Of a stretch of 64,000 bases of DNA, positions 9,971 to 32,672 are shown in pieces (the stretch's first letter is position 1; every line of letters starts with the position of its first letter). Origin of the DNA: a virus. Location: positions 248,001 through 312,000 of IMG/VR virus record IMGVR_UViG_3300021137_000001. One strand, written 5' to 3'. A model generated the notes under the pieces. That model ran no database searches. It saw only the letters and a program-made list of their open reading frames with translations, and was not told the origin of the DNA. A program made the position numbers and the translations under genes.

Positions 9971-11058
9971 TTCCGTTCTTTGGCATAGATAGACAATACA
10001 AAAATCTTCGCGAGGAGATACTTGATATTACTAATATTGTATATACGAGCGGGCAAGTTCTCGACGGCACATATACTAAAACGTTTGAGCAGACTATTGC
10101 TAAAATGACAGAGCGTAAGTATGCCATCGCTGTTAATAGTTGCACACAGGCGCTTATCTTTGCATTAAGAGCTATTGATCACTATTCATTATTTCGTAAA
10201 AACAAAGTACTAATCCCAGCGCAAAGTTTTGCCGCTACAGTCAATGTTGTTATTGAGGCGGGCTTTGAGCCTGTGTTCTGCGACGTTGATGCTGTTACTG
10301 GATTAATTAATCTCGATTCAATTCCAGTTGAGCCCGATGATATTGCGGCGGTTATGTACGTTAACTTGTTTGGTAATATTATCGACTACGATAAGTTACA
10401 GACTTATGTTACATTCTTTAATCAACATAAGATACCTGTAATCGAAGATGCTGCGCAATCGTTCGGTGCTTACTATCGTGGCGTTCCGAGTGGCAAGTTA
10501 GGTGACATTAGTTGTTTAAGTTTTGACCCAACAAAAAATCTTCCCAACTATGGAAGTGGCGGTATGATATTGTTAGATGACCCAGAGATTGCAATGTTAT
10601 GCTACAACTGGAGAGATAACGGAAAGATATCCGAACATAGTCTGTCTGGTACTAACAGCAAGATGAGTGAAGTTGATTGTGCGCAGATGTTAATTAAGTT
10701 AAAGTACTTTGATGAGTGGCAACAACGTCGTAAGAACATTGCAGAATACTATACAGAAGAATTAGATGGTCCGATTAAGTTAATCCCAATCGATAGTAAA
10801 GTAGAACATGCTTGGCATAAGTTTGTTATACACTATCCAGAGCGATCACGTCTATTCTCAGACTTGCAATCAATGAATATTGAAACTAAGATACATTATG
10901 TTGCACCATTACATCTAATGTCGCTAATTGGTGGGTATGAGGTATTGACTGGTGCTGAAGAATTTAGTAAGACTTGTTTAAGTTTGCCAATCTATCCTGA
11001 GATGACTGACGCAGAAGTTGAAGCAGTTGTTGATGCTATTAAAGAGTGTACTTGGTAG
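9967..11058 (+). CDS. DegT/DnrJ/EryC1-family PLP aminotransferase
   Basis: 363 residues. The PLP lysine is K190 in the motif SFDPTKNLPNYGSGG, close to the family form. IPVIEDAAQSFGA is the expected cofactor-binding strand, and NSCTQAL near residue 58 is the phosphate-binding region. These enzymes transaminate NDP-keto-sugars, so with the upstream epimerase it could make a 3- or 4-amino sugar nucleotide. Its 3' end overlaps the convergent minus-strand gene by 20 bp, with no terminator visible at the junction. Confidence 0.87.
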   Translation: MIPFFGIDRQYKNLREEILDITNIVYTSGQVLDGTYTKTFEQTIAKMTERKYAIAVNSCTQALIFALRAIDHYSLFRKNKVLIPAQSFAATVNVVIEAGFEPVFCDVDAVTGLINLDSIPVEPDDIAAVMYVNLFGNIIDYDKLQTYVTFFNQHKIPVIEDAAQSFGAYYRGVPSGKLGDISCLSFDPTKNLPNYGSGGMILLDDPEIAMLCYNWRDNGKISEHSLSGTNSKMSEVDCAQMLIKLKYFDEWQQRRKNIAEYYTEELDGPIKLIPIDSKVEHAWHKFVIHYPERSRLFSDLQSMNIETKIHYVAPLHLMSLIGGYEVLTGAEEFSKTCLSLPIYPEMTDAEVEAVVDAIKECTW

Positions 11059-12367
11059 CGTAATACTGTTTTAGCCAATCCCATTCAAACGTAAGCATTA
11101 GTTTATCAGCATTACCATCAACTTCATCGTAAAATACAATTGCATCTTCTGCGCCTTTAATGCTCCATTCTGCATTTGCGCCCACTGCTTCATGTAACCA
11201 TTCATCGAGTCTGTAATCACTTTCGATATTACCAGTCTTACGCACATCATCACGTAGTTTAATACACTCTCTAAACGCAGTGCGCCATGTTAGTTCTGGT
11301 GTAGTGTTATAATGCGCTATAGCACTTACTACAGGTACTACAGCGTGTGCTTTGCTTAATGTAAAGTCAAGTCCACTGTCGTTTGTATCAAGTACTAATT
11401 GTTTGTTGTATGCAATCACACCCATGTGCCCATACTCTAATCCGTTTACTGGATTCTTACTGTGGAATATGTAATGCTTGGGCTCTTGTAAATAATCGGG
11501 TTGCCATTCCCAGTTAAAGTCAGGAACAACTTCTAACTTAGCAAACACCGCAAAGAACCACGGCGTTGTACTAAGTTCAGCAGCCGCTTTATATGCTTCG
11601 ACTCGCCCATTAACATTTTGTACACGTTTAATTCGAGTAAAGGTGCGAGCCGGATGAGTTTTGCCAAATATTGAAGTTACTAAGTGCCGATACCACTTTT
11701 CTGCGTCCGGTTCGCCGTTGCTGATATAGATAATATCAAGCAATTCTGGCTTCAAATAGTCTAATTTCTGCTTCGAAACGTGTGGATAATCGTAGATTTG
11801 AGTTACTAAATGCCCCATAATATCGCGGGGTGCTAACGATACGTTATTGCTTGCATTGAATGAGTAAAACACACGGTCTTTCCATAGTGGTGCGTCAAAT
11901 TTAGTACGTGCATTAACCCAAACGTATGGAGTATCGAAGTTATATGCTTTAAGTTCAGCAGTTATGTTCTCACTTGCACATTCTACCATGGCCCATGGTA
12001 GACGCATAACTCCATCTACATGCCAGTTAATATCCTTATACCATTCCAACATCTCAACATCTTTTTGTTTGTTAAATTCAGCAACGTTAACAAGAAATGT
12101 ATCACCAAACTCTTGTGTGCCGCTTGCCCAACAGTGTAGTTGATATGCTTCCCATGGTGCTGGCCGGTAATCAAAGTCAAAGTCATAGTAACTACAGCAA
12201 CTACTAATTACCCAAGCGTATTGTGTTCTACAACGTGTAATACAGCGTTTTAACGTGTCTAAATGATTGTTGTAGTAACGTACAACTTTTGCGTGAGGAT
12301 ATAGTGTACATAGGTTCTGCACGTTTTCATCGTGCCCGCCCATATCCATAATGAATACATCAAACAC
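11039..12367 (-). CDS. Glycosyltransferase-like protein with two degenerate GT-A-type repeats
   Basis: 442 residues from a GTG start. The two halves look like copies of one module: each opens with a short strand, then a YP/TH-AK/AR segment, then a stretch ending in an aromatic strand and a Trp-rich region. The second half aligns with the protein at 24498: AYKAAAELS with AHKAAAAIS, PVNGLEYGHMG with EINGLMYGNGG, and TPELTWRTAFRECIKL with TPYQAWRAGFREGVKM. The metal-binding DGD of that protein is replaced here by SCCS in one copy and FAKLE in the other, so catalysis is doubtful. It is the last gene of the long minus operon. Confidence 0.6.
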   Translation of the reverse strand: MFDVFIMDMGGHDENVQNLCTLYPHAKVVRYYNNHLDTLKRCITRCRTQYAWVISSCCSYYDFDFDYRPAPWEAYQLHCWASGTQEFGDTFLVNVAEFNKQKDVEMLEWYKDINWHVDGVMRLPWAMVECASENITAELKAYNFDTPYVWVNARTKFDAPLWKDRVFYSFNASNNVSLAPRDIMGHLVTQIYDYPHVSKQKLDYLKPELLDIIYISNGEPDAEKWYRHLVTSIFGKTHPARTFTRIKRVQNVNGRVEAYKAAAELSTTPWFFAVFAKLEVVPDFNWEWQPDYLQEPKHYIFHSKNPVNGLEYGHMGVIAYNKQLVLDTNDSGLDFTLSKAHAVVPVVSAIAHYNTTPELTWRTAFRECIKLRDDVRKTGNIESDYRLDEWLHEAVGANAEWSIKGAEDAIVFYDEVDGNADKLMLTFEWDWLKQYYATKYTL

Positions 12368-12860
12368 TAACTTTCTCTACTGTTAATCCGCACTCTACTA
12401 GAAACGCAAGCCCTATTGTATCGCGATATGATTCAGCATAGTACACTTCTGTAATGCCAGCTTGATAAATTGTTTTTGCACAAGTCAAGCAAGGGCAATG
12501 AGTAACAAAGATTGCGGCTCCTTTGCCGCCGCCATTTAGTTTTGCAAGTTTTGCCACTGCGTTCGACTCTGCGTGAAGCACAGTTGATTTTGTTTTCAAT
12601 CTGTATCTGAGTTGGTCTGCGGCAACAAATGGCCACTGTGACTCTATTTCATCTGAGTCAAGCCAACCACCAGCATCTTGTGCCATGTATTCCGGTTCTT
12701 CGCATACGTTATCCCATCCGCTGGGTTGACCGTTGTATCCAATAGAGATAATTGCATCATCTTTAACAATAATTGCGCCAACTTGTAAGCGTACAGCACT
12801 TGAACATTCAGCATAATTGTATGCTGTTTTCATGTGCGCCAATTTCATTTTATGTTTCAT
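12360..12860 (-). CDS. cd: dCMP deaminase
   Basis: Converts dCMP to dUMP, feeding thymidylate synthase. The zinc site is complete: H96-A-E98 and P-C124-x2-C127, where E98 is the proton shuttle. The N-terminal half carries an extra loop with Cys and Asp residues typical of phage T4-type dCMP deaminases, which bind a second zinc and are regulated by dCTP/dTTP. The length (166) is near the T4 enzyme. It overlaps the upstream P-loop gene by 11 bp and the downstream gene by 8 bp. Confidence 0.9.
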   Translation of the reverse strand: MKHKMKLAHMKTAYNYAECSSAVRLQVGAIIVKDDAIISIGYNGQPSGWDNVCEEPEYMAQDAGGWLDSDEIESQWPFVAADQLRYRLKTKSTVLHAESNAVAKLAKLNGGGKGAAIFVTHCPCLTCAKTIYQAGITEVYYAESYRDTIGLAFLVECGLTVEKVSV

Positions 12861-13263
12861 TTATATCCTTAGCAATCATATCTGCCCAACGTTCAGCATC
12901 TTGTTCTGTTACACGTATATCGTATGACTCTGGTGGTTCAAATAGTCGGTTTGTATCTTCAAATCGCCCTTCATTAATTGTGTCAACCCATATAACATAG
13001 TCGGCATCAAATATATCACGTATCTCTTGAGTAGGTGCAACAAAGTCGCATATACTATGTTGCCACCCATCGAACGCATCCATTGCTGCAAGTTGACTCA
13101 TTCTACTTGCTTGTCGCAGTCTACCTTCTATGCTAAAGTCCATATCGTTAAATTGTTTTCTTATCTCATCTGCATTGTGCCAAGTTGCATTTAATCTTTT
13201 TTGCAATGCTTCTGCTAGTGTTGTTTTACCTGCACCCGGCAAGCCCATTATTAGTATGTTCAT
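12850..13263 (-). CDS. P-loop kinase related to adenylylsulfate kinase
   Basis: 137 residues with the Walker A motif GLPGAGKTT (7-15). The next conserved segment, WHNADEIRKQF, corresponds to the DGDNIR region of APS kinases, followed by a helical stretch RLRQASRM like that of CysC. It is shorter than CysC (about 200 residues), and nothing else for sulfate activation is present, so the substrate may be a different small molecule or nucleotide. It is coupled to the carbamoyltransferase gene by a 4-bp overlap. Confidence 0.75.
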   Translation of the reverse strand: MNILIMGLPGAGKTTLAEALQKRLNATWHNADEIRKQFNDMDFSIEGRLRQASRMSQLAAMDAFDGWQHSICDFVAPTQEIRDIFDADYVIWVDTINEGRFEDTNRLFEPPESYDIRVTEQDAERWADMIAKDINET

Positions 13264-14756
13264 GATAACACTTTAACTCCGTATAGTTCTTCAAATCGAT
13301 CTGCATCAGCACGATCATTTACCATTGGTTCACCACGTACATTTAAACTTGTATTAAGCAACATCGGGCAACCTGTCCAAGTGTACCATAAGCATAATAG
13401 TTCACGTATGCCACTACCATCTCGCGGCACTGTCTGTACACGACTTGTACCATCAACATGTATTATAGCAGGAAATTCATTGGGACGCAAGCACTTTGCA
13501 GTTGTTTGCATATACGGGCTAGATTTAAATCCGTTAGGCATTTCAAAATACTCATCAGCAAACTCCTCCAGTATTATAGGAGCGAATGGGCGAAACTGTT
13601 GTCTACGTTTAATTAAGTTTACAGCATCTTTAATGTCAGTGCCACGTGGGTCAGCTAATAAACTTCTATTACCTAATGCTCTAGGACCAAACTCTGCACG
13701 TCCACTAGCAACACCAACAATCTTATTTGCCATTAACTCGGATACAACATCGGTGCAAGGATAAGGGCCAGGAATATCATGCCCAAGAAAAGCATTAGTC
13801 CAATTAAGTTTCCCACCATGCGCTAATGCTGCCGCTCCAAGGCTGCTACCAGCATCACCAGGATTAGGCATAATCCAAATGTTATCAAAGTATTCTCCTA
13901 AATCTCTATTAGCACTACAGTTAAGCGCAACACCGCCAGAGTATACTAAATTACTGTTAGGTGCGAGCATACTTGCTTTATACATTATATTATGTATTAG
14001 TTCTTCAGTAAGTGTTTGTGCTGCATTAGCAATCTCAAAGTCATTCCATTTAACTTTCATATCATTAGCGGGCAGCCCAATATGTAGATTGTGTTTTAAT
14101 GTTAGATTAAACTCATTGTTAACTAGCCAATGAGAAAGTTGATCGCTTAATCGGTGTGTTTTTTTCTTTGCCCAGCCAGCCATGCCCATTAATATGTATT
14201 CTTCATCCAGTGGACGTAAACCAACTTCTTTAGTAAATGCACTATACATCAAGCCGATACTATGCGGATATTTTTGTCCCCATACCTTATTATATTGTGC
14301 CCGACCGTTTTTGTAATATGCACTCCATATGCTTATTGTATCCCATTCACCAATTGCATCAATTACAACCACAGTTGCATCATCAAATGTACTTGTTTGA
14401 AAGCCTGCAGCCGCATGTGATAGATGATGATTGTATGTACTAATTGGGAGATGATATATCGGAGAGTTGGGTACCATCTTTTTAAGCATACCACGTACAG
14501 TCCACGGCGTTTTTAATTCACTGTATTGTCCAGCATAAAGCTGACGTGTCTTCTTAACCCACGGTCTTTCATAGTATGCAATTTGATCGGGCGAGCCGTA
14601 TGTTAATGCATCTGCTATTAGCGCACTGTTTAAGTTTGCGTCATGTTTAATCAGGCTATAGCGTTCAGCATGACCTGCAAAGACAATATCATCGCCTTTG
14701 ATTAATGTTACTGCTGCGTCATGAAACCCAGCACTAATTCCTAATATGTTGTGCAT
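13260..14756 (-). CDS. NodU/TobZ-type carbamoyltransferase
   Basis: Transfers a carbamoyl group from carbamoyl phosphate through carbamoyl-AMP to a hydroxyl group. 498 residues. The N-terminal ASKHA/Kae1-like domain starts GISAGFHDA (6-14); the metal-binding H110-x3-H114 lies in NHHLSH. The C-terminal domain has ASGRAEFGPRALGNRS and LADPR, near-invariant in the family. It is somewhat shorter than TobZ (about 570), but all motifs are present. Known acceptors are sugars, antibiotics and, in some phages, modified DNA bases; here the neighbours favour a sugar or another small molecule. No Shine-Dalgarno sequence precedes the ATG, where an HNH gene on the other strand has been inserted. Confidence 0.88.
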   Translation of the reverse strand: MHNILGISAGFHDAAVTLIKGDDIVFAGHAERYSLIKHDANLNSALIADALTYGSPDQIAYYERPWVKKTRQLYAGQYSELKTPWTVRGMLKKMVPNSPIYHLPISTYNHHLSHAAAGFQTSTFDDATVVVIDAIGEWDTISIWSAYYKNGRAQYNKVWGQKYPHSIGLMYSAFTKEVGLRPLDEEYILMGMAGWAKKKTHRLSDQLSHWLVNNEFNLTLKHNLHIGLPANDMKVKWNDFEIANAAQTLTEELIHNIMYKASMLAPNSNLVYSGGVALNCSANRDLGEYFDNIWIMPNPGDAGSSLGAAALAHGGKLNWTNAFLGHDIPGPYPCTDVVSELMANKIVGVASGRAEFGPRALGNRSLLADPRGTDIKDAVNLIKRRQQFRPFAPIILEEFADEYFEMPNGFKSSPYMQTTAKCLRPNEFPAIIHVDGTSRVQTVPRDGSGIRELLCLWYTWTGCPMLLNTSLNVRGEPMVNDRADADRFEELYGVKVLS

Positions 14757-14781
14757 TTTGATAAATAAATTTAAAGGTGAT
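14691..14781 (+). promoter_or_regulatory. Late promoter inside a possible RBS-hiding hairpin, HNH gene leader
   Basis: GATAAATA at 14760-14767 is a late promoter, predicted start near 14773. The ribosome site AAAGG (14773-14777) lies in the right arm (14771-14781) of a stem with 14691-14701: 11 bp including two G-U pairs, loop 69 nt. RNA from upstream would hide the site; late RNA lacks the left arm. The left arm also codes for the carbamoyltransferase on the other strand. Confidence 0.5.
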
Positions 14782-14785
14782 TAAC

Positions 14786-15568
14786 ATGATATTTATTGAA
14801 AACAAATATACTAAAATTTATTATAGCATAATTGATTCTGCAAAGTCAAGAACTTTATCGCAGGAAACATACACAGAAAAACATCACACAATTCCCAAAT
14901 CACTTGGGGGCGACAATTCAACAGAAAACTTAGCGTCCTTGACTGCAAGAGAGCATTTTATATGCCATTGGTTGCTAACTAAAATGACTTCGGGCACATC
15001 AAAGCGTTCAATGGTTTTTGCACTAAGAATGTTAAAGGCTATGTCCACTAAGCACCAAAGATATGAAAGTTGTGTTACTGCCAAAGTGTATGAATCTATT
15101 AGAAAAGAGCACTCTGTATACCTTAGTAATATGCTTAAAGGGAGAATTGTTAGCGACGAAACTAGACACAAAATGTCTATTGCGGCAAAGAAAAAGACGC
15201 AAAATTCTTTTAAAGGGCATTCTCACAGTGAAGAAACAAAGGCTGCAATTGGGGATGCTAATAGGGGCAAACAAAGAACTGCCGAACAAAAAGAAAAAAT
15301 GTCGGCAGCACTTAGAGACATGTCAGTGAATCGTAGAGAAAAATTATCAGTTTATAAAAAGAATCATCCATTAACTGAGGATTCACTGAACAAAATTCGT
15401 AAATTATATGTCGTTACATTTCCAAACTGTACTACTGAGCAGACTAATAATTTAGCAGAATTTTGTAAAAACCACAAACTAAGTTTACCAGCAATGCGTG
15501 ATCAGGTTGCTAAAGGTAAACAAGAACATCACAATGGATACTGTGTTAAATCCATCCCAAAGACCTAA
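14786..15568 (+). CDS. HNH homing-type endonuclease with NUMOD3 repeats
   Basis: 260 residues from the ATG at 14786; a GTG at 14777 in frame is part of the ribosome site. The HNH module is readable as EKHHTIPKSLGG (H33, H34), N48 and REHFICH (H57, H61). NUMOD3-like helical repeats follow (SDETRHKMSIAAKKK, SEETKAAIGDANRGKQR). It lies on the plus strand in the middle of the long minus operon, between the carbamoyltransferase and an SGNH gene, overlapping the latter by 23 bp at the 3' ends. It has its own late promoter. This is a mobile insertion and not a pathway gene. Confidence 0.85.
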   Translation: MIFIENKYTKIYYSIIDSAKSRTLSQETYTEKHHTIPKSLGGDNSTENLASLTAREHFICHWLLTKMTSGTSKRSMVFALRMLKAMSTKHQRYESCVTAKVYESIRKEHSVYLSNMLKGRIVSDETRHKMSIAAKKKTQNSFKGHSHSEETKAAIGDANRGKQRTAEQKEKMSAALRDMSVNRREKLSVYKKNHPLTEDSLNKIRKLYVVTFPNCTTEQTNNLAEFCKNHKLSLPAMRDQVAKGKQEHHNGYCVKSIPKT

Positions 15569-16184
15569 TATGTTCATAAATTTTATCCGCTACTATTGCA
15601 TGCCCTTCTTCTAAAAAATGACCGCCCGATCCCTGGGGTGTGCCGTATGTCCATTCAGCCATAGTTCCGATTGGCCACCCTATAAAGTTCGCTGAATCAA
15701 TTTGGTCTCGAATCGGTGCAAACTCGTCCGACCAACGCAGCATAATATTGTTGCCATATGCATCGAGCATAAGCAATTTCTTGCCTTGTTGTCGCACATA
15801 AGATTGTAATAAAATTATATTTGTCAGATATTGCTTATACAAATATTTGTCATTGTAATGTATTGTAATGTATTTTAATAATTCTGTTCGGTATGCAAGG
15901 TCTTTAGTAAATGTTAGTCCACGATATCCGGGCCATGTATCAAATATTCCATGCTCATCAGCAAATTCAATACGTGCAAAATGACTCCATGCAACAATTA
16001 TTAAATCATAATCTGCTGCCTGTTCAACTATTGTCCGTACCATACTAGTATTTCCCACACCGGGTTTCCCTAAATTAGTTAACTCACATGATAATTTAGT
16101 TTGTAATACATACGGCCATGCTTGCTTAACATCCGTTAGTTCGTCACCATATGTAAAGCTATCACCAACTGTTAATACTCTCAC
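15546..16184 (-). CDS. SGNH/GDSL hydrolase-like protein
   Basis: 212 residues with a GTG start. Block I is GDSFTYGDEL (7-16), with the candidate nucleophile S9, and a later GVGNTS looks like block III. Near the C-terminus SGGHFLEEGHAIVADKI offers H189 and H195; the usual DxxH spacing is not exact. The start overlaps the stop of a 33-residue gene (GTGA), and the next upstream gene is another SGNH-like protein. It probably acts on acyl groups of a glycan or lipid; this is inference from fold and neighbours only. Confidence 0.75.
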   Translation of the reverse strand: MRVLTVGDSFTYGDELTDVKQAWPYVLQTKLSCELTNLGKPGVGNTSMVRTIVEQAADYDLIIVAWSHFARIEFADEHGIFDTWPGYRGLTFTKDLAYRTELLKYITIHYNDKYLYKQYLTNIILLQSYVRQQGKKLLMLDAYGNNIMLRWSDEFAPIRDQIDSANFIGWPIGTMAEWTYGTPQGSGGHFLEEGHAIVADKIYEHIRSLGWI

Positions 16185-16282
16185 TTGTAAATAAATGGAT
16201 CGCGCTTACGTAACTCTTTTAATTTCTTACGATAGCGTAATTCCATCTTGACACGATTAATTATGTTTAGTAACCAATTCAT
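16181..16282 (-). CDS. Small basic protein, 33 aa
   Basis: The gap between the two SGNH genes is filled by an ORF starting with ATG at 16282, inside the end of the upstream gene. GGAG stands 8 nt before the ATG, and its TGA overlaps the GTG of the next gene. The product begins with a hydrophobic helix (MNWLLNII), continues with a Lys/Arg-rich helix and ends KRDPFIYK. I recall short proteins with a similar KRDPFIY-like end in marine T4-like phages, function unknown. Coupling on both sides plus a good ribosome site support it. Confidence 0.65.
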   Translation of the reverse strand: MNWLLNIINRVKMELRYRKKLKELRKRDPFIYK

Positions 16283-16955
16283 TGAACTTCTCCGTTATTA
16301 ATGTTGCTGCGATTTTGTGTGCATCGTCGAGTGGATGTAGTTGTACTCCAACTTTATACTTATTTTCAACTGCCCATCGATGGAAGCCAATTGGTGCACG
16401 AGTTTCATTTTCCTGCATACTGGCGGCAAACCAAAACCAGTTTTCCCAATTAATTTGATTATATAAGTTATCTAGACCAGCATCTCGGCGCCGGATATAG
16501 TTTTCGTGTTGGTAGAAATGATTATCAGCAGTCATAAACATATATGGTATCTTGTTTATTATACAATACTGCTGTAGAAAGACTATTTCTTTGAGTATAG
16601 AGTAAATTTCATAGTATTCACTATCACCAGCATGTTTAAAATAACTTTCACTAAATTCTTTAGCGTTAGTATGCCAACTGTTTATACTAATCCACTCATC
16701 GTTAATTCTAAATTCAGCACGTTGTGGGTAAGTCCATTCAACTAACAAAAACTTATCATCCTCTATTTTACTTAACGCATCAATTGCCATTCTACTAATT
16801 GCATTATTGGCATTGCCAGGGTGTGCCGTGCAAACATACTCCATATTAGATTGTTGTGCTAACAATGCCGGAAAAGTTTGTTTGCTATAGACGGCCCGGC
16901 AGTCTGCAAGCTCACTACCCCATATATAACTATCCCCTGCAGCTACTAAAATCAT
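16257..16955 (-). CDS. SGNH/GDSL hydrolase-like protein
   Basis: 232 residues. Block I GDSYIWGSEL (7-16) has S9 as the candidate nucleophile; GNANNAI (about 52-58) resembles block III. The His block is QLHPLDDAHK, with H207 preceding Pro as in many family members. It is a distant paralogue of the gene at 15546: both start with GDSxxxGxEL after a short strand. It lies 5 bp after the gene at 16961 in the minus operon. Substrate unknown. Confidence 0.72.
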   Translation of the reverse strand: MILVAAGDSYIWGSELADCRAVYSKQTFPALLAQQSNMEYVCTAHPGNANNAISRMAIDALSKIEDDKFLLVEWTYPQRAEFRINDEWISINSWHTNAKEFSESYFKHAGDSEYYEIYSILKEIVFLQQYCIINKIPYMFMTADNHFYQHENYIRRRDAGLDNLYNQINWENWFWFAASMQENETRAPIGFHRWAVENKYKVGVQLHPLDDAHKIAATLITEKFNELVTKHN

Positions 16956-16960
16956 AAAAT

Positions 16961-18052
16961 TCAGGCGATCTGATCAATTTGTTGATCAGCATAATCACTG
17001 TCTGACCAATCATATTCATATGTAACTGATGCATCCTTGGTTCTTATACTGTACACATTTAGATGTTCGCCTAACTGCAACCAAATATTTTTATACTTGT
17101 CGTTGCCAAAACTTTTAATTAAATCAACTTGCCCAACTTGCGGATGACCGATGGTTAATGTCTTATCATCCGGATCAAATCCATTATTCGATAACCATTG
17201 TTTAAAATCTTGCAAGGTTTTTATTTGCCATTGATATTTTCCTGGATTGTTTGACCATTCGATATCAAAATCGCCGGCGGCTTCAGTTTGTGAACGTAAT
17301 GTAGTGGTAGTCAATTCATCGATTCTATGGTTAAGGGGATTAGCAACTTCGTCACGAAATACTTCAAAATGATGTTTGCCAACTGCTTTGTTAACTCCAG
17401 CATATACACCGCCTAGCGGACGATTTAAACTTTCAATACCGAACAGTTCGAAATCATTTTCATCTAATACAAATCTCGGTGCACTTAACCAACACATTAA
17501 TTGACTGGGTCTACGCCACTCTGGGGCATGAACAGCTTTACGCATGCTCAATATAAGAGATTCATATTCATGACATAATAAGTTTAATTGTCGAATATGC
17601 CATCGAACTCGGCTGTCTGCTCGGTTATAAAATTCAGACATGCGGCCGCTAACTCCTTGTAAATCTTCAAAATATCTATGCAGATGATTCATCTTATCAT
17701 GTACTACACCACCAATTTCTTCAGTACCGTTGATTACTCCAGGAGATATAGTATTTTCCACAGTAAAATGATCGTTAATCTGATATCCAAGATTTGCTTG
17801 ATTAATTGCCGCGATTGATAGATTAATTTGATTAGTTATATATTCTGCATTTCTGTCAGATTCAATAAATCCGTGAAAGCAATAATTTTTCTCAAGATGA
17901 TAGTTTTGTTTGATTAATGTATTAAGCGCCGATAGCCATTTACGACTAAGAGAGTTATCATATACATCAATGTATATAGTAAGTATGTCGTTAGTTTTGT
18001 TATTTTTTAGATCAATTTCAATTTGATCAAGCAATGTTTTTATACCACTCAT
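16961..18052 (-). CDS. Protein of unknown function in the radical SAM operon, 363 aa
   Basis: I do not recognise a characterised family. The N-terminal third has mixed strands and helices, with YHLEKNYCFHGF near residue 50. The middle (about 120-190) is helical and rich in His, Arg and Tyr (NHLHRYFEDLQG, RWHIRQLNLLCHEYESL). The C-terminal third is mixed again and ends in an acidic tail. There is no cysteine cluster and no Rossmann or P-loop motif. It overlaps the last radical SAM gene by 26 bp, so its production is tied to those enzymes. It could be a partner, a scaffold or a novel enzyme. Confidence 0.7.
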   Translation of the reverse strand: MSGIKTLLDQIEIDLKNNKTNDILTIYIDVYDNSLSRKWLSALNTLIKQNYHLEKNYCFHGFIESDRNAEYITNQINLSIAAINQANLGYQINDHFTVENTISPGVINGTEEIGGVVHDKMNHLHRYFEDLQGVSGRMSEFYNRADSRVRWHIRQLNLLCHEYESLILSMRKAVHAPEWRRPSQLMCWLSAPRFVLDENDFELFGIESLNRPLGGVYAGVNKAVGKHHFEVFRDEVANPLNHRIDELTTTTLRSQTEAAGDFDIEWSNNPGKYQWQIKTLQDFKQWLSNNGFDPDDKTLTIGHPQVGQVDLIKSFGNDKYKNIWLQLGEHLNVYSIRTKDASVTYEYDWSDSDYADQQIDQIA

Positions 18053-20502: not shown

Positions 20503-21802
20503 ATGATTTTAAATCTATAAACTCAGGGAATACCTGTCGGAATCTTTCGTTACGATAAATGTCCATTTGTTCGTTTACTCGAAAAAATTCACTCAATAAT
20601 TCACTCTTATCATCGGCATCCATAAAGTGCAATAAACTCTGATATCCATTGGTGGCACGTTTTAAATAATCAGAAGGTGCTAACCATTGTATATGTTCTT
20701 CTATTTTTTCCCTAGCCCGATCTTTATATACCTTAGGCAATACATCAATACGGTCGCGTTCGGATCCTTGTAGAATATTAATGTTCCAATCTTGTGGTTT
20801 AATAAATCCACGCTCAACCCAATCTCTATGGAAATCTGTGATGTGTAATATATTATAGATACTAACAGTAGGACTTATATAAAAGTCTACATTAGGACAT
20901 TTTTCAATCATGCGGCGGCGATTATTTTCAATGTCTGCCCACTTAGTACCTTTGCGTATATATTCGCCTCGTTCACCCATACCATCTAAACTAGCACCTA
21001 CACTAACACTATCAAATAACTGCCAATAATCTAATACATCTTCATTTTTAAGATTAAGTCTGCTAAAGTTTGTGTTGTATACTAATTTAACATCAAAGCG
21101 TTCTTGACGCACTAACTCTTTTAATACTTTATAATGTTCTTCCATGATAAGCGGTTCGCCACCGGCAAAGTAAATCTGATCAAGATACGGAATGTGTTGT
21201 AGCATTTGCACCCACATGTCGTTTTCTGTACGACCTGCAAACATAATTTGTGGGTGATTACGTGGACCAAACAGTTTAGTTTCTTCTGTGTACCAACTAC
21301 TGCTAAACAAACTTCCACACGTTCTGCAACTAAAGTTACATAGATTACTAAAGCGTACATCATAGTAACGTAGTTTAAAGTCCTCTACTGTGCCGTTTGC
21401 TAGTGTGTTATCAACTAATGCAATGTGTTGCCCAAAGTTTTTATTTGAACTGTTGCGCATACTCATAAAGCCACTTGCTTCTTGCTCGTAGCACTTAGTA
21501 CATTCTTTACACGATTTTTCTGTAAGCATGTTTGTACGCATAGTTTTATATGCATCATCATTCCATACTTCTTCCATTGTGTTTTGTTTGAAGTTACCAA
21601 TTGGGTAATCCATTTCGCCGAGACAACAAGGATATGCTCGTCCGTCTGGGAAGCCATGCATGTGTATCCACGGGATTATGCAAAATGTATCACTATCAAC
21701 TAATCTCGCAAGTTGATCTTTACGTAAATCATCTTCGCTTATATAAACTGGCTTACGTGTATGATAGTTATGATTCTTATAATATTCTGTTTCTTTTGTC
21801 AA
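20489..21802 (-). CDS. Radical SAM enzyme with N-terminal cysteine domain, copy C
   Basis: 437 residues. The likely start is TTG at 21802, within a TTGA overlap of the upstream stop; the next Met is too far inside, because the conserved C41-IIPW would be lost. SAM-cluster motif C155-x3-C159-x2-C162 (CNFSCRTC), then AGGEPL. N-terminal ligands: C41, C59-C60, C98, C101 and C104, with a GN(F) and VWND pattern between them exactly as in SPASM domains. It carries a 35-residue extension before the first Cys that copies A and B lack. Confidence 0.86.
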   Translation of the reverse strand: MTKETEYYKNHNYHTRKPVYISEDDLRKDQLARLVDSDTFCIIPWIHMHGFPDGRAYPCCLGEMDYPIGNFKQNTMEEVWNDDAYKTMRTNMLTEKSCKECTKCYEQEASGFMSMRNSSNKNFGQHIALVDNTLANGTVEDFKLRYYDVRFSNLCNFSCRTCGSLFSSSWYTEETKLFGPRNHPQIMFAGRTENDMWVQMLQHIPYLDQIYFAGGEPLIMEEHYKVLKELVRQERFDVKLVYNTNFSRLNLKNEDVLDYWQLFDSVSVGASLDGMGERGEYIRKGTKWADIENNRRRMIEKCPNVDFYISPTVSIYNILHITDFHRDWVERGFIKPQDWNINILQGSERDRIDVLPKVYKDRAREKIEEHIQWLAPSDYLKRATNGYQSLLHFMDADDKSELLSEFFRVNEQMDIYRNERFRQVFPEFIDLKSYVVK

Positions 21803-23133
21803 AGTGTGTTATACCAGTTAGTTAATTGTGTAAACGTGTATTTAAAGTCTTTACCTCGGCGTTGGTCGTATTGCTGATAAAAATTCTTAAAGTCTTGTAA
21901 TAAGTTGTTGTCAACTGTTGTATCTTGTTGTAAGTAATCAATCAAACGTTTAATATGTTCAAGTTCATGCTCGTGTAATGCACTATTCTTACTATTGTTA
22001 ACTAAAAATTCACTAAGCTCTTTACTATATATTGCACGTAGCTCAGCTGGTAGTATCATCGGACTTTGAAAACTAGGGAAGCGCAGTATGTTTAATGTAA
22101 ATGACAATGCTTCGCGGCCATACTTCTCTTTAAGCTTCATCATGTTGTATAAAAATTCACTAAGGCTCGGCAAGCATAATGCGTTGATAGTACACATGAC
22201 ATGTATGCTACGCACTTTTTTACTGTTAAGTAAGAATATTAAATTGCCAACCCATTGTTTCCATTCTAGTCCATCACGTATATACTCTGCATGTGTGCCC
22301 ATTGACTCATTGCTAGTGTAGATATCAAGTTCAATACCCTGTGTGCTATCGAGCAAGCGTTCAAGTATATCACGCTTAAAGCCAAGATTACTATTAATAG
22401 CAAGACGTGTAGTACTCGCGCCTTTGTGTGCTTTAAACCAATCGATTAAGCGCCACGTGTTATCTGACATTAGTGGTTCGCCGCCTGTAATGCGTAGCTC
22501 TTTTAATGTTTTATGTAGGTCTGTTTCCCACCATTTGAAGAATGCTTCCACATACGGATTAACTTCATTGAGTTTAAATAATTGACTGCTACTATGCTCG
22601 TGAGTAAAATGATTTCTGCCGTCTGAAACCAAATTGGTGTATGCCCCGTTCTGATGTATGTCTCTAACCCAACTAGTGCTAAAAGCAGGGTTGCAGTAAG
22701 AACAAGCAAACTGGCAAGTTCTGTCAAAGGCAATTTCCAAAGTTTGTAAGTTAACATCTTCGTTTGCAGGTAAATTGTATGCATCATCTAAGTCCTTATC
22801 GTTATAAATTACAGTCTTATATACACGGTCACTAACTGCATCTGTGCTCATGTCTTCTATCTTCCAGCAGTAATCACAGCCCGCAGGTCGTTCTCCTGCT
22901 TGCATTTGTCTACGCTGTTCTTTCTTTTGCGGAGTATTATGTATTGCGCTTGGATTTGTTTTAATTGCTTCTATATCAATTGCATGAGGCAATGGGTGAT
23001 GACAACTTGTAGTTTGTCCACTTCCTAACCATATAGTAGCGTTGTACCATTTTGCCGCGCAGAAGCTAGCGGACTTAATGTCAATCACTCTACGCTTATA
23101 TGCTAAATCTGTTTCGTTATTAATTTTCGGCAT
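21799..23133 (-). CDS. Radical SAM enzyme, divergent N-terminal domain, copy D
   Basis: 444 residues. SAM-cluster motif C140-x3-C144-x2-C147 (CQFACSYC), then TGGEPLM. The N-terminal region keeps C25, C44 and C86-x2-C89, but the Cys-Cys pair of copies A-C is replaced by C44-H-H-P, so the auxiliary cluster could have a His ligand or a different nuclearity. The C-terminal YDQRRGKDF is shared with copy E (YDKRRGLNF), and the two are clearly closest relatives. It overlaps copy C by 4 bp and copy E by 14 bp. Confidence 0.86.
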   Translation of the reverse strand: MPKINNETDLAYKRRVIDIKSASFCAAKWYNATIWLGSGQTTSCHHPLPHAIDIEAIKTNPSAIHNTPQKKEQRRQMQAGERPAGCDYCWKIEDMSTDAVSDRVYKTVIYNDKDLDDAYNLPANEDVNLQTLEIAFDRTCQFACSYCNPAFSTSWVRDIHQNGAYTNLVSDGRNHFTHEHSSSQLFKLNEVNPYVEAFFKWWETDLHKTLKELRITGGEPLMSDNTWRLIDWFKAHKGASTTRLAINSNLGFKRDILERLLDSTQGIELDIYTSNESMGTHAEYIRDGLEWKQWVGNLIFLLNSKKVRSIHVMCTINALCLPSLSEFLYNMMKLKEKYGREALSFTLNILRFPSFQSPMILPAELRAIYSKELSEFLVNNSKNSALHEHELEHIKRLIDYLQQDTTVDNNLLQDFKNFYQQYDQRRGKDFKYTFTQLTNWYNTL

Positions 23134-24505
23134 GGTATTTACACTCCTGCCAAAAATCTTTCATTTGTGGGAATGTGTTCAAAAAGTTTAATCCTCTACG
23201 TTTATCGTATTCATTAAAAAATCTATAGAAGTCTGCACGTTGCGTTTTTAAATAGGTCGCATCTAAGTCAGCTCCTTGTTTCATCCAATCAAGATTACGT
23301 TCCATACGTTGTATCTCATAGTCTTTAAAGCCCTCAAAGTTATCAGCACGTTCGTCTGCTTGGTTTGTTCGCATAAATGTAACAACATCTTCTAATATGC
23401 GAACATAACTTGCTGGCAGTATTTGTAAACTTTGATATGTTGGGCTACGTAACAGTGGCGTGTCAAACCATACACGTTGATACGTTGAGCTAAACTTTTT
23501 ACGCATATTTAGAATTGATTCTAACAAGCGTTGCAGGCCAAGTATGTTTAAATTGTTCATTGTAATAATAAATGTTAAACTATTGCGATATGGAATATCC
23601 GTTAGGTATCGTTGAACATACGACCCACATCTATTCCAGTCTAATCCATCCCGTATATATTCAGCATGATCGGCAATGCCCGTATCTAAACTAACATACT
23701 GCATAAAGTGTTCAATGCGCTCGCCTTCGCATAGTTGTTTAACTTTATCTAGATACTTATTAAACAACGCGGGTTCAACACTAAAGTTACTTGTAACATC
23801 AACGTGCAAATCACTTTTCGGCAAAGCAAGTATGTAATCAAACACACGATGCGTATTCTTATCCATAAGCGGTTCGCCACCAGTCATTCTAAAGTGTTTT
23901 AGTTTAGGATATAGCTCAGGCCACCAGGCCCAGAATGCATCAACATAGGGGTTAGCTTCACGTACTGGGATTGGCTTACGTCGACCTTGAAAGTGCTCAG
24001 GTGCATTGTGCGGAGTACTTGTTGGGTATGCACCCCAACGATCAATATCTTTGCCCCACTCTGTTGAATACTGTGGACTGCAATATGAACAAGCTAAGTT
24101 ACAGCCATGACTGAAGTTTACTTCAACATAACTTGGCACAACATCTTGGTCCCATGGTGCATTTACTATCGCTTCATAGTGTTCAGCCGCCCATGGTTCA
24201 CCAGAACGATAGTGTCTGTCGCTTAGTTGCTTGTTATCTTCTGCACTCCAACAGTAACTACATTCTGCTGGGCGTGTTTGCTCTAGCATAAGTTTACGTT
24301 GCTGTTTCTTGTAGTCAGTATTGTGTAGCGCACCTGGATTGAATAACAATGGCGCACTATCAATCTCGTGCAACGGAGGGTGATAACAACTGTTAGTCAT
24401 GCCAGTTGTTAAATGCAAACTTACTTGTTGCCACTTAGCCAAGCAGAGTGCAGGTCCTAACTTGTCCTTCATTTCTTCTGCAGCTGACATAAAATTGCTA
24501 CTCAC
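23120..24505 (-). CDS. Radical SAM enzyme, divergent N-terminal domain, copy E
   Basis: 461 residues from GTG at 24505 (a Met codon lies five codons downstream and is an alternative start). SAM-cluster motif C135-x3-C139-x2-C142 (CNLACSYC), then TGGEPLM. N-terminal candidate ligands are C21, C40 in SCYHPP, and C82-x2-C85. It pairs with copy D: both have the N-P-G/S-A-L/I-H-N-T segment before the CxxC, an insert with ANPYVDAFWAWW-like sequence after the SAM motif, and a conserved C-terminus. First radical SAM gene in transcription order. Confidence 0.86.
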   Translation of the reverse strand: MSSNFMSAAEEMKDKLGPALCLAKWQQVSLHLTTGMTNSCYHPPLHEIDSAPLLFNPGALHNTDYKKQQRKLMLEQTRPAECSYCWSAEDNKQLSDRHYRSGEPWAAEHYEAIVNAPWDQDVVPSYVEVNFSHGCNLACSYCSPQYSTEWGKDIDRWGAYPTSTPHNAPEHFQGRRKPIPVREANPYVDAFWAWWPELYPKLKHFRMTGGEPLMDKNTHRVFDYILALPKSDLHVDVTSNFSVEPALFNKYLDKVKQLCEGERIEHFMQYVSLDTGIADHAEYIRDGLDWNRCGSYVQRYLTDIPYRNSLTFIITMNNLNILGLQRLLESILNMRKKFSSTYQRVWFDTPLLRSPTYQSLQILPASYVRILEDVVTFMRTNQADERADNFEGFKDYEIQRMERNLDWMKQGADLDATYLKTQRADFYRFFNEYDKRRGLNFLNTFPQMKDFWQECKYHAEN

Positions 24506-25391
24506 GTGTCATTATGCCTGTGTTCTTAAATACGCTTTTGTAATGATGCTTAAAGAATCTGCTTTGGTCTGCATTTAATTGTGGTGCAGGTAGACCCAAT
24601 CGTAAATTTAACGAAAGCGACATTTCCCCGCATTCCTCGACTAAGTTGTACACTTTATGTTGATGCCATATTCTGTTTAGTGCATCAAAGTCTTGCACTT
24701 CTCTATAATCCCAATCTGTAATCATTGTCATGTATGTACCAAGTTTAGCACCATACATTGCCCAGTCGCCATTCTCTACATCCATACCTACATTGTGCCA
24801 TATGCTTAAATGATCATAGTTGCGATTGTGTACCCGTTTCTCAAACTCTTGCAGGCTTGGCTTAGTACCTCGAGCTAAACACATTTTAACACCTTCCCTA
24901 AAGCCTGCTCGCCACGCTTGATACGGAGTTGCGTTTGGATATGTTGTGCTGTAACAATCGTTCATACTCCAATAGCGTGGATCAAAACAAAACTCAACAG
25001 CGGTATCATCGTCACCGTTACTTGCTTCGTGAGTACGCATATTGTTGACAAAGTCTTTAGTCCAACAACTCATGCCGCCATTGCCGTACATTAGTCCGTT
25101 TATTTCGTTACGTGCTTTCCAGCGAAATACCACGTCACTGTTTGTGTTATCAAGTTGTAATTGTAAATTGAAAAATGCAGGATCGGGTATATTATCGCCA
25201 TCGATAAGAATGAATCTATCTGTATCCGATATCGCTGCGGCGGCTTTGTGCGCAGCGTCACTACCTTTGACTCCATCTACACGTTTGGCCCACGGTACCA
25301 TATTTTGTATCTTAATCCAATTTTGCTCTTTGTTTGGCTCATCGTATGTTAGCATCACACAATCTAAATCTGCAATATCAATTAGTGGCAT
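24498..25391 (-). CDS. GT-A-type glycosyltransferase-like protein
   Basis: 297 residues from the ATG at 25391; an in-frame TTG at 25400 would add three residues. The N-terminus resembles a nucleotide-sugar-binding half: strand CVMLTYDEP, helix, then FILIDGDNIPD with a D64-x-D66 metal motif in the place expected for GT-A glycosyltransferases. The later INGLMYGNGGM and AWRAGFREG are shared with the protein at 11039, which has lost the DxD. It overlaps radical SAM copy E by 8 bp. The family assignment is by pattern only; donor and acceptor are unknown. Confidence 0.65.
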   Translation of the reverse strand: MPLIDIADLDCVMLTYDEPNKEQNWIKIQNMVPWAKRVDGVKGSDAAHKAAAAISDTDRFILIDGDNIPDPAFFNLQLQLDNTNSDVVFRWKARNEINGLMYGNGGMSCWTKDFVNNMRTHEASNGDDDTAVEFCFDPRYWSMNDCYSTTYPNATPYQAWRAGFREGVKMCLARGTKPSLQEFEKRVHNRNYDHLSIWHNVGMDVENGDWAMYGAKLGTYMTMITDWDYREVQDFDALNRIWHQHKVYNLVEECGEMSLSLNLRLGLPAPQLNADQSRFFKHHYKSVFKNTGIMTRE

Positions 25392-25728
25392 AGTATTCAA
25401 TCTCGTTATAAGTATCAGTTGGTTCTAATATTAATCCTGCGTGTTTCTTTACTACAGCATAACCCTCAGAGCTACTGATTAATTGTACATGATAACCGGG
25501 ATTGTTGTCAATCTTTTTTAGTTTACCATCTTTAATTGTGTAGCAGAAGTAGTTGTCATATTCATCTTTGCTAACAACAATATACGTTGTATCGGATGGG
25601 TGATTTATCATTGTACACATCGTAATATGCCCATCTTCATAGTGTATTCTGTATTCTTTGACTTCTTCCACAGTGGGTTGCAACATTGCAAATGCTTCAG
25701 CTAATGTATCATTTGAGTTCATCTTCAT
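25378..25728 (-). CDS. Conserved phage hypothetical protein, 116 aa
   Basis: Starts with ATG-AAG-ATG-AAC, so it may begin at residue 1 or 3. The centre is a strand-rich domain (EYRIHYEDGHITMCTMINHP, then YIVVSKDEYDNYFCYTIKDGKL) that I recall, with low certainty, as a small uncharacterised protein of T4-like phages. It overlaps the GT8-like gene upstream by 20 bp and the downstream GT-A-like gene by 14 bp. No enzymatic motif. Confidence 0.65.
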   Translation of the reverse strand: MKMNSNDTLAEAFAMLQPTVEEVKEYRIHYEDGHITMCTMINHPSDTTYIVVSKDEYDNYFCYTIKDGKLKKIDNNPGYHVQLISSSEGYAVVKKHAGLILEPTDTYNEIEYYATN

Positions 25729-26563
25729 ATTCCTTAACTAAAGCATCTGTTATCCAACTCTTTTCATGATAGTGAATGGGATGATATTGATTTGTATTTG
25801 CTATACGTATCATCGGTAAATCTGTTTCGCACATTACTAATTCGGGCCATGGCGTACTTGTCCACTTGTTAATAGCAGGTTTCATATGTACAAAGTTAAT
25901 AAAATCTGCGCTGGGCAATGTACAATTTTCTATGCCCAAGATCTTTGCCGCTAGTGCATACACTACATCAGTAGTCGGATTATTATCGCGACAGTTAAGT
26001 AATACCTTATCGCGAATGTGCGCCCAGTTTCTAAATAGTTGTTCTGCTAGTGTAAAAAATTGGGTTGCTTCGCGTGTGTATCTAAAATACATTAGTCCAT
26101 TGTAGGTGTCGGGCAATTCATTATCGTCAAACAACTTTCTGTATTCACGTGATCGACTTAACTCTTGTTTATAATCTCTATAGCCAGTGCTTAATACAAT
26201 GTTCTTTAATCTAAAAGCGGTCCACCAGTGTGCAATACTTCTAGTGAATACAATATCACTTTCAAGTTTAATTGTTTCTTTGAATGGTGTGAGATAAAAT
26301 GCTTGCCATTCGTTACTTAACTTCCAAGCTTCGTCTACGGCTAAGTCATTCTCAATTGTAATTACATAATCAAACACTCGACGATGCTGTTCGGTTACTC
26401 GCGCTAGTGTATTCTTATCAACTGCAACTGCGTATAAGCTATTGGGCATTGTAAGTTTAATGCTCATTGCCTGCACGTAAGCAAGACGCAAATAATCGAC
26501 ATCTGCGGTGTTTTGCGCAATTGTCATAAAGCCTTGCTGTGCTTGATGGGGTGTTATTCGCAT
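25709..26563 (-). CDS. GT8-like glycosyltransferase-related protein (1)
   Basis: 284 residues. The central segment WQAFYLTPFKETIKLESDIVF aligns with RYRAYELSPYDETILLDSDYLQF of the adjacent upstream protein. In this copy the metal-binding D-x-D is E101-S-D103, a substitution that may weaken metal binding. The arrangement, in which an Arg/Trp helix and a YSP/TPF-ET strand lead into a DxD, is typical of GT8-family enzymes that use UDP-sugars. It overlaps its paralogue by 10 bp. Confidence 0.62.
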   Translation of the reverse strand: MRITPHQAQQGFMTIAQNTADVDYLRLAYVQAMSIKLTMPNSLYAVAVDKNTLARVTEQHRRVFDYVITIENDLAVDEAWKLSNEWQAFYLTPFKETIKLESDIVFTRSIAHWWTAFRLKNIVLSTGYRDYKQELSRSREYRKLFDDNELPDTYNGLMYFRYTREATQFFTLAEQLFRNWAHIRDKVLLNCRDNNPTTDVVYALAAKILGIENCTLPSADFINFVHMKPAINKWTSTPWPELVMCETDLPMIRIANTNQYHPIHYHEKSWITDALVKEYEDELK

Positions 26564-27315
26564 AAGGTATCTACCAATTTATCAAAGTCGGCACTTAATA
26601 AGTAATCTTTATCCATTATGTGTACGTTTTGCAGGGCAATGACATGTGCTATATTTTCTTCACGTATAATCATCTTTTCACCTGTTATTTCGATGTTTTT
26701 GACTAGTTTATCTATGGTTAGCATAGTAAAAGGGATACTTTGTGATAGGTCAGTAGTGTAACCACTAATAATATTGTTAGCAATTGCAAATGCGTAATCA
26801 TTGCGAAAGTTGCGTTCTCTAATGTGATACAACTTTTGATAATAAGCATAGTTACGTTCAATTCTGCCTACTAAGTCAAACAATGCTTTCGTTTTATCAG
26901 TGCGCTTAAATGTTATAGCAGTTGCCCACACATAATCTAAACTCATTTGCCCCATGTTGCCCGACATTGACATTGTAGGACTTTGATTGTGATGCATTAA
27001 CTTGTAATCAATTGTAGTGTCAAGTATGTTTAATAAACTCGTATCAAATTGTAAATAATCGCTATCAAGTAATATAGTTTCATCATACGGACTAAGTTCA
27101 TACGCACGATATCTACCACCGTTCTTCCATTGTGTTCCACCTGCGTGACCTGTTCTAAAGTTTTTAGCAGATGTAACGCCAGTATCTGTTATAATAGTAG
27201 TTGGTAGATTTAATGTGTGCTCAATCAGTCGTGCGGCTTGCTCAGCGATTTTAATGTAATCAACTGTATCTGTGTTAACAGCAAATAATATTACGCCCTT
27301 AGACTTTTCTTGCAC
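26554..27315 (-). CDS. GT8-like glycosyltransferase-related protein (2)
   Basis: 253 residues from a GTG start inside the end of the upstream gene. N-terminal strand GVILFAVNTD, a helix with YIKIAEQAARLI, then TIITDTGV, and the motif ETILLDSDYLQF with D84-S-D86, a full DxD. A conserved segment later (RNFRNDYAFAIANNIISGY) is placed where GT8 enzymes have acceptor-side Asp/Asn residues. Probably a metal-dependent glycosyltransferase; the sugar is unknown. It has a close but divergent paralogue immediately downstream. Confidence 0.65.
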   Translation of the reverse strand: MQEKSKGVILFAVNTDTVDYIKIAEQAARLIEHTLNLPTTIITDTGVTSAKNFRTGHAGGTQWKNGGRYRAYELSPYDETILLDSDYLQFDTSLLNILDTTIDYKLMHHNQSPTMSMSGNMGQMSLDYVWATAITFKRTDKTKALFDLVGRIERNYAYYQKLYHIRERNFRNDYAFAIANNIISGYTTDLSQSIPFTMLTIDKLVKNIEITGEKMIIREENIAHVIALQNVHIMDKDYLLSADFDKLVDTLCE

Positions 27316-27616
27316 GTTTAAGTTCTTCGTGTTGTATATGCCACAAGTTCATTGCCTGCTGATAGTGTTGTGTGCATATATCTAAAAATTCCGATCGTTG
27401 CACAAAGATTGGGTTCTCGTACGTATCTTCTAAGTATAGCGCAACACTGGGCCATGTTGAGAGAAACGCAATAAGCTCTGGTGTTACCTTAAAGAGCCCA
27501 TTGTTATATGGTACGTGCAGATCTGTTTGCACTTTCTCTTTAAGTATACGTTTGTTTGTTTGATAATCCGTTGCTTGTTTAATTTGAGCAACTAGTTGAT
27601 TGATTTCTGTTGTCAT
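27299..27616 (-). CDS. Hypothetical protein, 105 aa, first gene of the minus operon
   Basis: Predicted helical, with a Pro-containing centre (TPELIAFLSTWP) and a basic C-terminus. I recognise no family of known function. It is the first gene after the promoter/terminator element at 27630-27699, 40 bp from the predicted RNA start, and overlaps the next gene by 17 bp. It could be a regulator or an accessory protein. Confidence 0.65.
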   Translation of the reverse strand: MTTEINQLVAQIKQATDYQTNKRILKEKVQTDLHVPYNNGLFKVTPELIAFLSTWPSVALYLEDTYENPIFVQRSEFLDICTQHYQQAMNLWHIQHEELKRARKV

Positions 27617-27632: not shown

Positions 27633-27662
27633 AAAAATAGGTAAGTGTTTATTCTTACCTAT
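27633..27662 (-). terminator. Rho-independent terminator, end of late structural genes
   Basis: On the minus strand: arm ATAGGTAAG (27662-27654), loop AATAAACA, arm CTTACCTAT (27645-27637), continuing into five T in a row (27637-27633). Nine perfect base pairs. On the plus strand no T tract follows, so it should act on leftward transcription only. Confidence 0.75.
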
Positions 27663-27691
27663 AGTGTACTACATTTATACGAGTATGTCAA
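27663..27691 (-). promoter_or_regulatory. Sigma70-type promoter of the radical SAM operon
   Basis: On the minus strand TTGACA (27691-27686), a 17-bp spacer, TACACT (27668-27663). The predicted RNA start is near 27656, inside the first arm of the terminator, so RNA made here cannot form that hairpin. The spacer also contains TATAAATG (27679-27672), one mismatch from the T4 late consensus. It is the only good promoter found ahead of the 16.5-kb minus operon. Confidence 0.65.
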
Positions 27692-28708: not shown

Positions 28709-28738
28709 AAAAATAGGTAAGTGTTTATTCTTACCTAT
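28709..28738 (-). terminator. Rho-independent terminator between the two structural paralogues
   Basis: Same nine-bp stem (28738-28730 with 28721-28713), eight-nt loop and T tract (28713-28709) as the copy at 27633-27662, reading leftward. Confidence 0.72.
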
Positions 28739-28767
28739 AGTGTACTACATTTATATTAGTATGTCAA
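28739..28767 (-). promoter_or_regulatory. Sigma70-type promoter overlapping the terminator
   Basis: TTGACA (28767-28762), 17 bp, TACACT (28744-28739), minus strand. The predicted start near 28732 lies inside the terminator stem. It would give the 27695 gene an independent start in addition to read-through from the late genes. Confidence 0.55.
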
Positions 28768-31229: not shown

Positions 31230-31249
31230 TATTATTACCTATTATATGT

Positions 31250-31257
31250 TATTTATC
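31250..31257 (-). promoter_or_regulatory. Late (gp55-type) promoter
   Basis: GATAAATA on the minus strand, 20 bp before the ATG of the fibre gene at 31229; predicted start near 31244. The following bases ACATATAATAGG resemble those at the other late promoters. Confidence 0.65.
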
Positions 31258-31261
31258 TGCA

Positions 31262-32659: not shown

Positions 32660-32672
32660 TGTCTTTTCCTAG

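Follow-up and report, generated by a model that had tools for sequence, protein, structure and literature searches.

A conserved set of radical SAM and glycosyltransferase genes behind the tail-fiber genes of uncultured giant phages probably decorates the phage's own tail or its host's receptor

Gene content of the cassette

The window analyzed herein is a 64,000-nucleotide stretch representing positions 248001–312000 of a 329,321-bp IMG/VR virus record. The source of the cassette is a T4-like jumbo phage, with PHROGs families matched by baseplate wedge, hub, SbcCD-like, and tail sheath proteins. Upstream of the cassette, the same strand carries genes for baseplate wedge and hub proteins, one giant gene, and the gene for the tail-fiber-module protein TF (29739–31229, minus strand). 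The gene for a tail protein, T (27695–28648, minus strand), lies between TF and the cassette.

The block at 11039–27616 carries 17 genes, all on the minus strand. Neighboring genes overlap by 4–26 bp at 13 of the 16 junctions, and the remaining junctions are gaps of 5, 72, and 789 bp. Within the 789-bp gap is a plus-strand gene for an HNH/NUMOD3 homing-type endonuclease (14777–15568). It is a mobile insert that no relative shares other than the near-identical contig L025. An initial annotation had described the same overlapping block with its single HNH interruption, and had assigned to it one promoter, five radical SAM enzymes, four glycosyltransferase-like proteins, two SGNH proteins, and a carbamoyltransferase. 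All of these assignments are recovered here on the evidence given below.

The first cassette gene encodes X105 (27299–27616), a small conserved protein. G253 (26554–27315) is glycosyltransferase-like and has a DxD motif (D84, D86) that is invariant among relatives. G284 (25709–26563) weakly resembles GT8 enzymes and glycogenin, although the profile match to glycogenin (E 2e-4) covers only about the first 112 residues; its E101 and D103 are invariant. X116 (25378–25728) is a small protein found only in a subset of relatives. For G300 (24498–25400), which has an invariant DGDN motif, the top structural matches of the predicted model (pLDDT 82) are GT-A-type enzymes, but these are weak (best E 4e-3). 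A domain of G300 recurs in GT442 (11039–12367), usually the last gene of the cassette.

Five radical SAM enzymes, numbered R5 to R1 in order of transcription, occupy the center of the operon: R5 (23120–24505), R4 (21799–23133), R3 (20489–21802), R2 (19303–20502), and R1 (18027–19316). All five score between 285 and 407 bits against the model NF033640 (N_Twi_rSAM), for which the curated cut-off is 170 bits, and R3 also has an N-terminal SPASM/twitch match. A sixth protein above this cut-off is encoded at genome positions 143635–144921. The earlier description of these proteins as SPASM/twitch-like radical SAM enzymes should be amended to place all five in one named, functionally uncharacterized subfamily. 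Our literature searches found neither a reaction nor a characterized member for N_Twi_rSAM.

The R1 gene overlaps by 26 bp with that of its putative partner X363 (16961–18052), which is a new family, nearly always located beside R1. The X363 model (pLDDT 81.7) does not have a PDB-like fold, no significant sequence relation to PDB entries was detected, and a profile search of K566, C48C1, and Atu_ph07 gave no match. X363 sequences fall into two types, which track the radical SAM distances poorly.

CARB (13260–14756) is a TobZ/NovN-type O-carbamoyltransferase whose Carbam_trans_N and Carbam_trans_C domains both score above cut-off. A sequence search of the PDB identifies NovN, GdmN, and TobZ as relatives, with E values down to 3e-74, and CARB thus resembles O-carbamoyltransferases that act on small molecules. 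Both domains are common to these enzymes, whereas the phage protein is distinguished by its length of 498 amino acids and its synteny with radical SAM genes.

The other operon genes include two for SGNH-like proteins, Sc (16257–16955), assigned from a GDSY motif read by eye alone, and Sb (15546–16184), which has weak matches to GDSL models and DUF6071. A P-loop kinase-like protein (12850–13263) and a dCMP deaminase-like protein (12360–12860), the latter probably involved in nucleotide metabolism, are encoded before GT442. Convergent to GT442 on the plus strand are genes for an NDP-sugar epimerase/dehydratase (8987–9970) and a DegT-type sugar aminotransferase (9967–11058). Additional NDP-sugar genes are present at 30–41 kb of the genome.

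Conservation and order of the core genes

Queries of IMG/VR yielded at least 452 confirmed relatives of R3, at least 598 of G300, and at least 574 of X363. Synteny was mapped for the best 80 relatives per query, and the contigs in these three sets are partly the same. Among the best 80 R3 relatives, the order TF-T-X105-G253-G284-(X116)-G300-R5-R4-R3-R2-R1-X363-(Sc-Sb)-CARB-(P-loop, deaminase)-GT442 is nearly universal. From the best 80 G300 relatives, 54 loci have enough flanking sequence for comparison, and G253, G284, T, and TF are present in every one. R5 and X105 are each found in 53 of these 54 loci, R4 in 49, and R3 in 46, a fall-off that partly reflects flank length. For X363, R1 is located directly upstream in 78 of the best 80 loci, and CARB is nearby in 77. 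The arrangement is not a product of chance, since almost all contigs examined share it. The original proposal named as a refuting outcome that the genes are never conserved together. This is clearly not what is observed, as synteny of the core holds across almost all loci examined.

The core comprises approximately ten genes. SGNH, P-loop kinase, deaminase, GT442, and HNH genes vary among relatives, and with the exception of the mobile HNH gene these are accessory, as are the amino-sugar genes. The initial annotation had viewed the operon as a complete modification pathway joined by an NDP-amino-sugar branch. A pathway of glycan enzymes is well supported, but its constant portion is the smaller core. 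The amino-sugar branch survives to the extent that DegT and epimerase genes convergent to GT442 are found in many relatives, whereas the third SGNH gene assigned to it (7992–8990) shows no conservation across the retrieved loci. Many relatives have extra radical SAM and other genes between core genes. By Pfam these encode GDSL/SGNH proteins and a B12-type radical SAM protein, and the remainder were identified by eye only.

Phylogenetic analysis of the radical SAM proteins had been suggested as a check on the initial proposal. In a tree of 89 sequences, R1, R2, R3, R4, and R5 each form one clade with ultrafast bootstrap values of 96–100. There are also several long-branch extra sequences of uncertain placement. 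The CX3CX2C motif is kept in 95%–100% of the 123–144 distinct sequences examined per ortholog, and the N-terminal twitch cysteines are kept in 94%–99%. The phylogeny thus resolves five separate orthologs with intact motifs.

A search by tblastn of 50,697 deposited phage records gave no match for G300, X363, G284, or X105, and the only matches for R1 were in two Vibrio phages (20% identity). CARB relatives are common among deposited phages, and on one marine single-cell viral contig CARB is followed by an R2-like gene. Bacterial homologs of G300 and the N_Twi proteins are chromosomal. In Bdellovibrionia, a G300 homolog, a second gene with the G300 domain, and an N_Twi gene are close together. 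A Bacteriovoracaceae locus (L117) combines N_Twi genes with genes for a carbamoyltransferase, a DegT protein, a PqqD-like protein, a SPASM radical SAM protein, and ABC-2 membrane and ABC ATPase components. The composition of these bacterial loci fits glycan chemistry and is compatible with either a tail or a host surface as the target.

Transcription and linkage to the tail module

Ahead of X105 is a sigma70-type promoter, TTGACA-17-TACACT (27691–27663), followed directly by a perfect 9-bp hairpin and a T run, with the whole element spanning 27637–27691 on the minus strand. A second copy of the promoter–hairpin element is located at 28713–28767, behind a paralogous T gene. Relatives support the single promoter described earlier. 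Sigma70-like sites with at least 10 of 12 matches occur upstream of X105 in 47% of relatives versus 1.9% of shuffled sequences, where the use of the most upstream possible start codons adds noise to promoter counts. Similarly, a hairpin with a T run is found in 52 of 92 T–X105 spacers, compared with 2.4 after shuffling. The T4-late-like motif TAAATA marks TF genes (87% versus 13% shuffled), whereas its frequency at X105 (8%) equals background. A T4 late promoter, TATAAATA, was sought ahead of the cassette and was not found. Given this difference between X105 and TF, the cassette, with a sigma70-type promoter located behind a terminator, most likely forms a transcription unit of its own starting at X105, and the timing of its expression may differ from that of virion assembly.

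Cultured jumbo phages contain the same tail module. In PA5oct it ends in homologs of TF (gp359, annotated as a virion structural protein) and T (gp360, annotated as ESI-MS/MS-detected), both of which are annotated as detected by mass spectrometry, and no cassette follows them. Homology to gp360 suggests that T is a virion protein. Distances for T and G253 covary beyond linkage among 102 loci (partial correlation 0.41), whereas the value for X105, encoded between them, is 0.06. In a rank-based version with 200 bootstraps the effect is weaker, with G253 exceeding G284 in 99.5% and X105 in 94%. This covariation is modest, and it could also be expected if G253 modifies the receptor bound by T. Covariation between X363 and T is weak and is therefore left out of the argument.

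The rhizobial jumbo phages Atu_ph07 (Agrobacterium) and Phosso (Sinorhizobium) resemble the window phage in carrying a radical SAM cluster, of at least three genes, behind the TF homolog at the same tail position. Each also encodes a 300- to 302-amino-acid protein whose fold may be that of X363. In a comparison of the X363 model with BFVD, the 300-amino-acid protein A0A2L0UZJ4 of Atu_ph07 was matched (E 1.6e-6); its equivalence to AUZ94948 is based on length and place, and a profile comparison of X363 with AUZ94948 was not significant. In contrast to the window, the rhizobial radical SAM proteins are not N_Twi members but are closest to the peptide maturases DynA, PapB, and DarE. G253, G284, G300, and CARB are all absent from the tail site of both phages. 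Another difference is the presence of a 296- to 306-amino-acid protein with the conserved C terminus CHxSCHASCHxSRSRR, which together with the radical SAM genes makes it plausible that radical SAM enzymes there act on a protein of the phage.

Possible products and acceptors

Hundreds of uncultured giant phages carry the same ordered enzyme set after their tail-fiber genes, and the probable role of this set is to decorate either the tail of the phage or the receptor on its host. We slightly favor a tail protein, with a probability near 0.4 that the cassette makes a radical-SAM-tailored, carbamoylated glycan and attaches it there. The three soluble glycosyltransferases G253, G284, and G300 would work in the cytoplasm of the host to assemble a short glycan. 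The five N_Twi enzymes would use radical chemistry to tailor its sugars or the residue of attachment, with the last of them, R1, acting together with X363, and CARB would cap a hydroxyl group by carbamoylation. The acceptor would most likely be a virion protein of the adjoining tail module, with T the first candidate, such that a tail adhesin is decorated before assembly. The cassette follows TF and T in all 54 G300 loci with sufficient flank and likewise in the R3 and X363 sets, T is a virion protein by homology and covaries with G253, and conservation extends to the DxD-type motifs and to the cysteines of the radical SAM enzymes. The likeness of CARB to small-molecule O-carbamoyltransferases and the radical SAM clusters of the rhizobial phages also speak for this view. 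Furthermore, hydropathy analysis predicts no transmembrane segments in any of the 17 proteins (a control membrane protein gave five), and this suits a cytoplasmic protein acceptor. Two points argue against a tail acceptor. The sigma70-type promoter behind a terminator, contrasted with the late-like motif of TF genes, means that cassette expression may be timed differently from virion assembly, and the bacterial homologs are chromosomal, with ABC-transporter and carbamoyltransferase genes in L117 as in surface polysaccharide loci. A bolder proposal, which we consider rather unlikely, is that the cassette represents a viral post-translational modification of a new class, in which a dedicated five-enzyme radical SAM line and X363 as a carrier or recognition subunit place on the phage adhesin a kind of glycan or glycopeptide not known from cells or viruses.

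A serious competitor, only slightly less probable in our estimate, is that the cassette instead alters a glycan on the surface of the host (LPS core, O-antigen, or capsule) and thereby changes the receptor, blocking superinfection or re-adsorption of progeny. Its own sigma70-type promoter sets the cassette apart from the late tail genes, NDP-sugar genes are available in the phage genome, and DegT and epimerase genes adjoin GT442. The carbamoyltransferase, DegT, and ABC genes of L117 point in the same direction, T–G253 covariation is also expected if G253 alters the binding target of T, and this function has been proposed for the clusters of pelagimyophages that contain GT8 and radical SAM genes (PMC7029224). 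However, the cassette lacks genes for membrane proteins, flippases, and lipid-carrier enzymes, although host proteins could serve, and the rhizobial relatives retain radical SAM genes with none of these glycosyltransferases at the site.

Peptides are frequent substrates of SPASM/twitch radical SAM enzymes, and it is conceivable, though improbable, that R1–R5 mature a peptide or protein of the tail module in a RiPP-like manner, with the glycosyltransferases and CARB adding to it so that a glycosylated, modified peptide results. The DynA/PapB/DarE-like enzymes and Cys-His-Ser-tailed protein of the rhizobial phages, as well as the PqqD-like gene in L117, favor this explanation. Nevertheless, a Cys/His tail scan of window-type cassettes revealed no recurrent Cys/His-rich tail or small precursor gene; X105 and X116 are unlike precursors, and X116 is often absent. 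Phage DNA, also listed initially as a target, is highly improbable. Phage carbamoyltransferases that act on 5hmC in DNA do exist (PMC8670742), and deaminase and P-loop kinase genes are present in the operon, but these two genes are accessory. The only thymidylate synthase family gene (6449–7297) has the dUMP-type Asn, in the motif PFNIASY, rather than the Asp at position 177 of dCMP hydroxymethylases, and therefore no hydroxymethylated substrate such as that for carbamoylated hydroxymethylcytosine is predicted. Moreover, carbamoyltransferases of unmodified contigs accompany glycosyltransferases (PMC8670742). DNA modification was rejected as the main explanation on the basis of this synthase.

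A near-fixed enzymatic core of approximately ten genes, with five radical SAM orthologs kept distinct and intact across highly diverged jumbo phages, implies that a costly product is under lasting selection where phage and host meet. At least several hundred environmental contigs have matches to individual genes, and deposited phages lack the marker genes tested, which points to undescribed chemistry. Such chemistry could account for adsorption, immunity to superinfection, or protection of the virion in an abundant group of uncultured phages, and X363 and the N_Twi subfamily are now open to direct testing.

The initial annotation could not name this system. In the literature searched, which mostly did not extend to subscription papers, we likewise found no description of the fixed core, X363, the promoter split, or the T–G253 link, and radical SAM genes in jumbo phages received passing mentions only. 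The kind of system is not wholly without precedent, since tail-linked clusters with glycosyltransferase and radical SAM genes have been published (PMC7029224; PMC5332604). Gtr-type O-antigen conversion operons encode a membrane flippase and a polytopic glycosyltransferase, neither of which is among the 17 cassette proteins. A closer likeness is the host recognition cluster of pelagimyophages and cyanomyophages, a hypervariable tail-fiber region of T4-like phages with tail fibers, GT8 enzymes, and radical SAM cassettes (PMC7029224). The cassette similarly lies at the tail-fiber/baseplate module of a T4-like phage and includes glycosyltransferases. Those clusters are described as nonsyntenic and variable, in contrast to the fixed core reported here with its five orthologous N_Twi genes, X363, and CARB. 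Finally, the marine T4-like phage TARA_ERS488813_N000010 is, like the window phage, an environmental T4-like phage with many radical SAM genes, 12 in total, which the relevant passage, with no analysis of gene order or partners, interprets solely as a demand for Fe-S clusters (PMC5332604).

Variation within the X363 family

The X363 family, which adjoins the radical SAM gene R1 in the cassette (window gene 16961-18052, minus strand), falls into two sequence types that are ~60% different in alignment A3. These types track radical SAM distances poorly, a pattern as though they had been swapped among phages. The accessory SGNH genes tend to accompany one of the two types. Only one X363 open frame, that of 544 amino acids in the relative L041 (16205-17836), is far above the family length, and an X363-fold protein in BFVD (A0A6J5T9P3) has 768 amino acids. 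Both long forms are candidate fusions and might point to a partner of X363.

Radical SAM genes in rhizobial phages and bacteria

In two cultured rhizobial jumbo phages, a protein encoded between radical SAM genes of the tail operon (Atu_ph07, 26119-27009; Phosso, 19628-20548) has the C-terminal end CHxSCHASCHxSRSRR. The two proteins share ~46% identity overall, with the Cys, His, Ser, and Arg positions of the tail kept. This tail looks like a radical SAM substrate.

MAGs of Bdellovibrionia and related bacteria (L133, L134, and L138), which are relatives of predatory bacteria, carry a chromosomal cluster of two genes with the domain of glycosyltransferase-like G300, a radical SAM gene of subfamily NF033640, and additional radical SAM genes.

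Other elements of the phage genome

Two identical copies of a promoter-plus-hairpin element (window positions 28713-28767 and 27637-27691), one behind each paralogous tail protein gene T, are present, with none elsewhere in the phage genome. The hairpin could block readthrough out of T, and its 5′ arm would be absent from transcripts begun at the element's own promoter.

A second sugar cluster (genome positions 29851-40804) includes cytidylyltransferase/mannose-6-phosphate isomerase, B12 radical SAM, GDP-mannose-dehydratase-like, C-methyltransferase, and GT2 genes. Genes at genome positions 106181-110438 were called curli-like by eye on CsgG/CsgA-like starts; a Pfam search with one of them gave no match. 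Homing-type endonuclease genes of the HNH and GIY-YIG-like kinds, mostly called by eye, are numerous and dispersed over the genome, including those at window positions 4253-4900, 14777-15568, 56880-57557, 58514-59185, and 62956-63534. A related gene sits within the cassette of the relative L026, at a different site.
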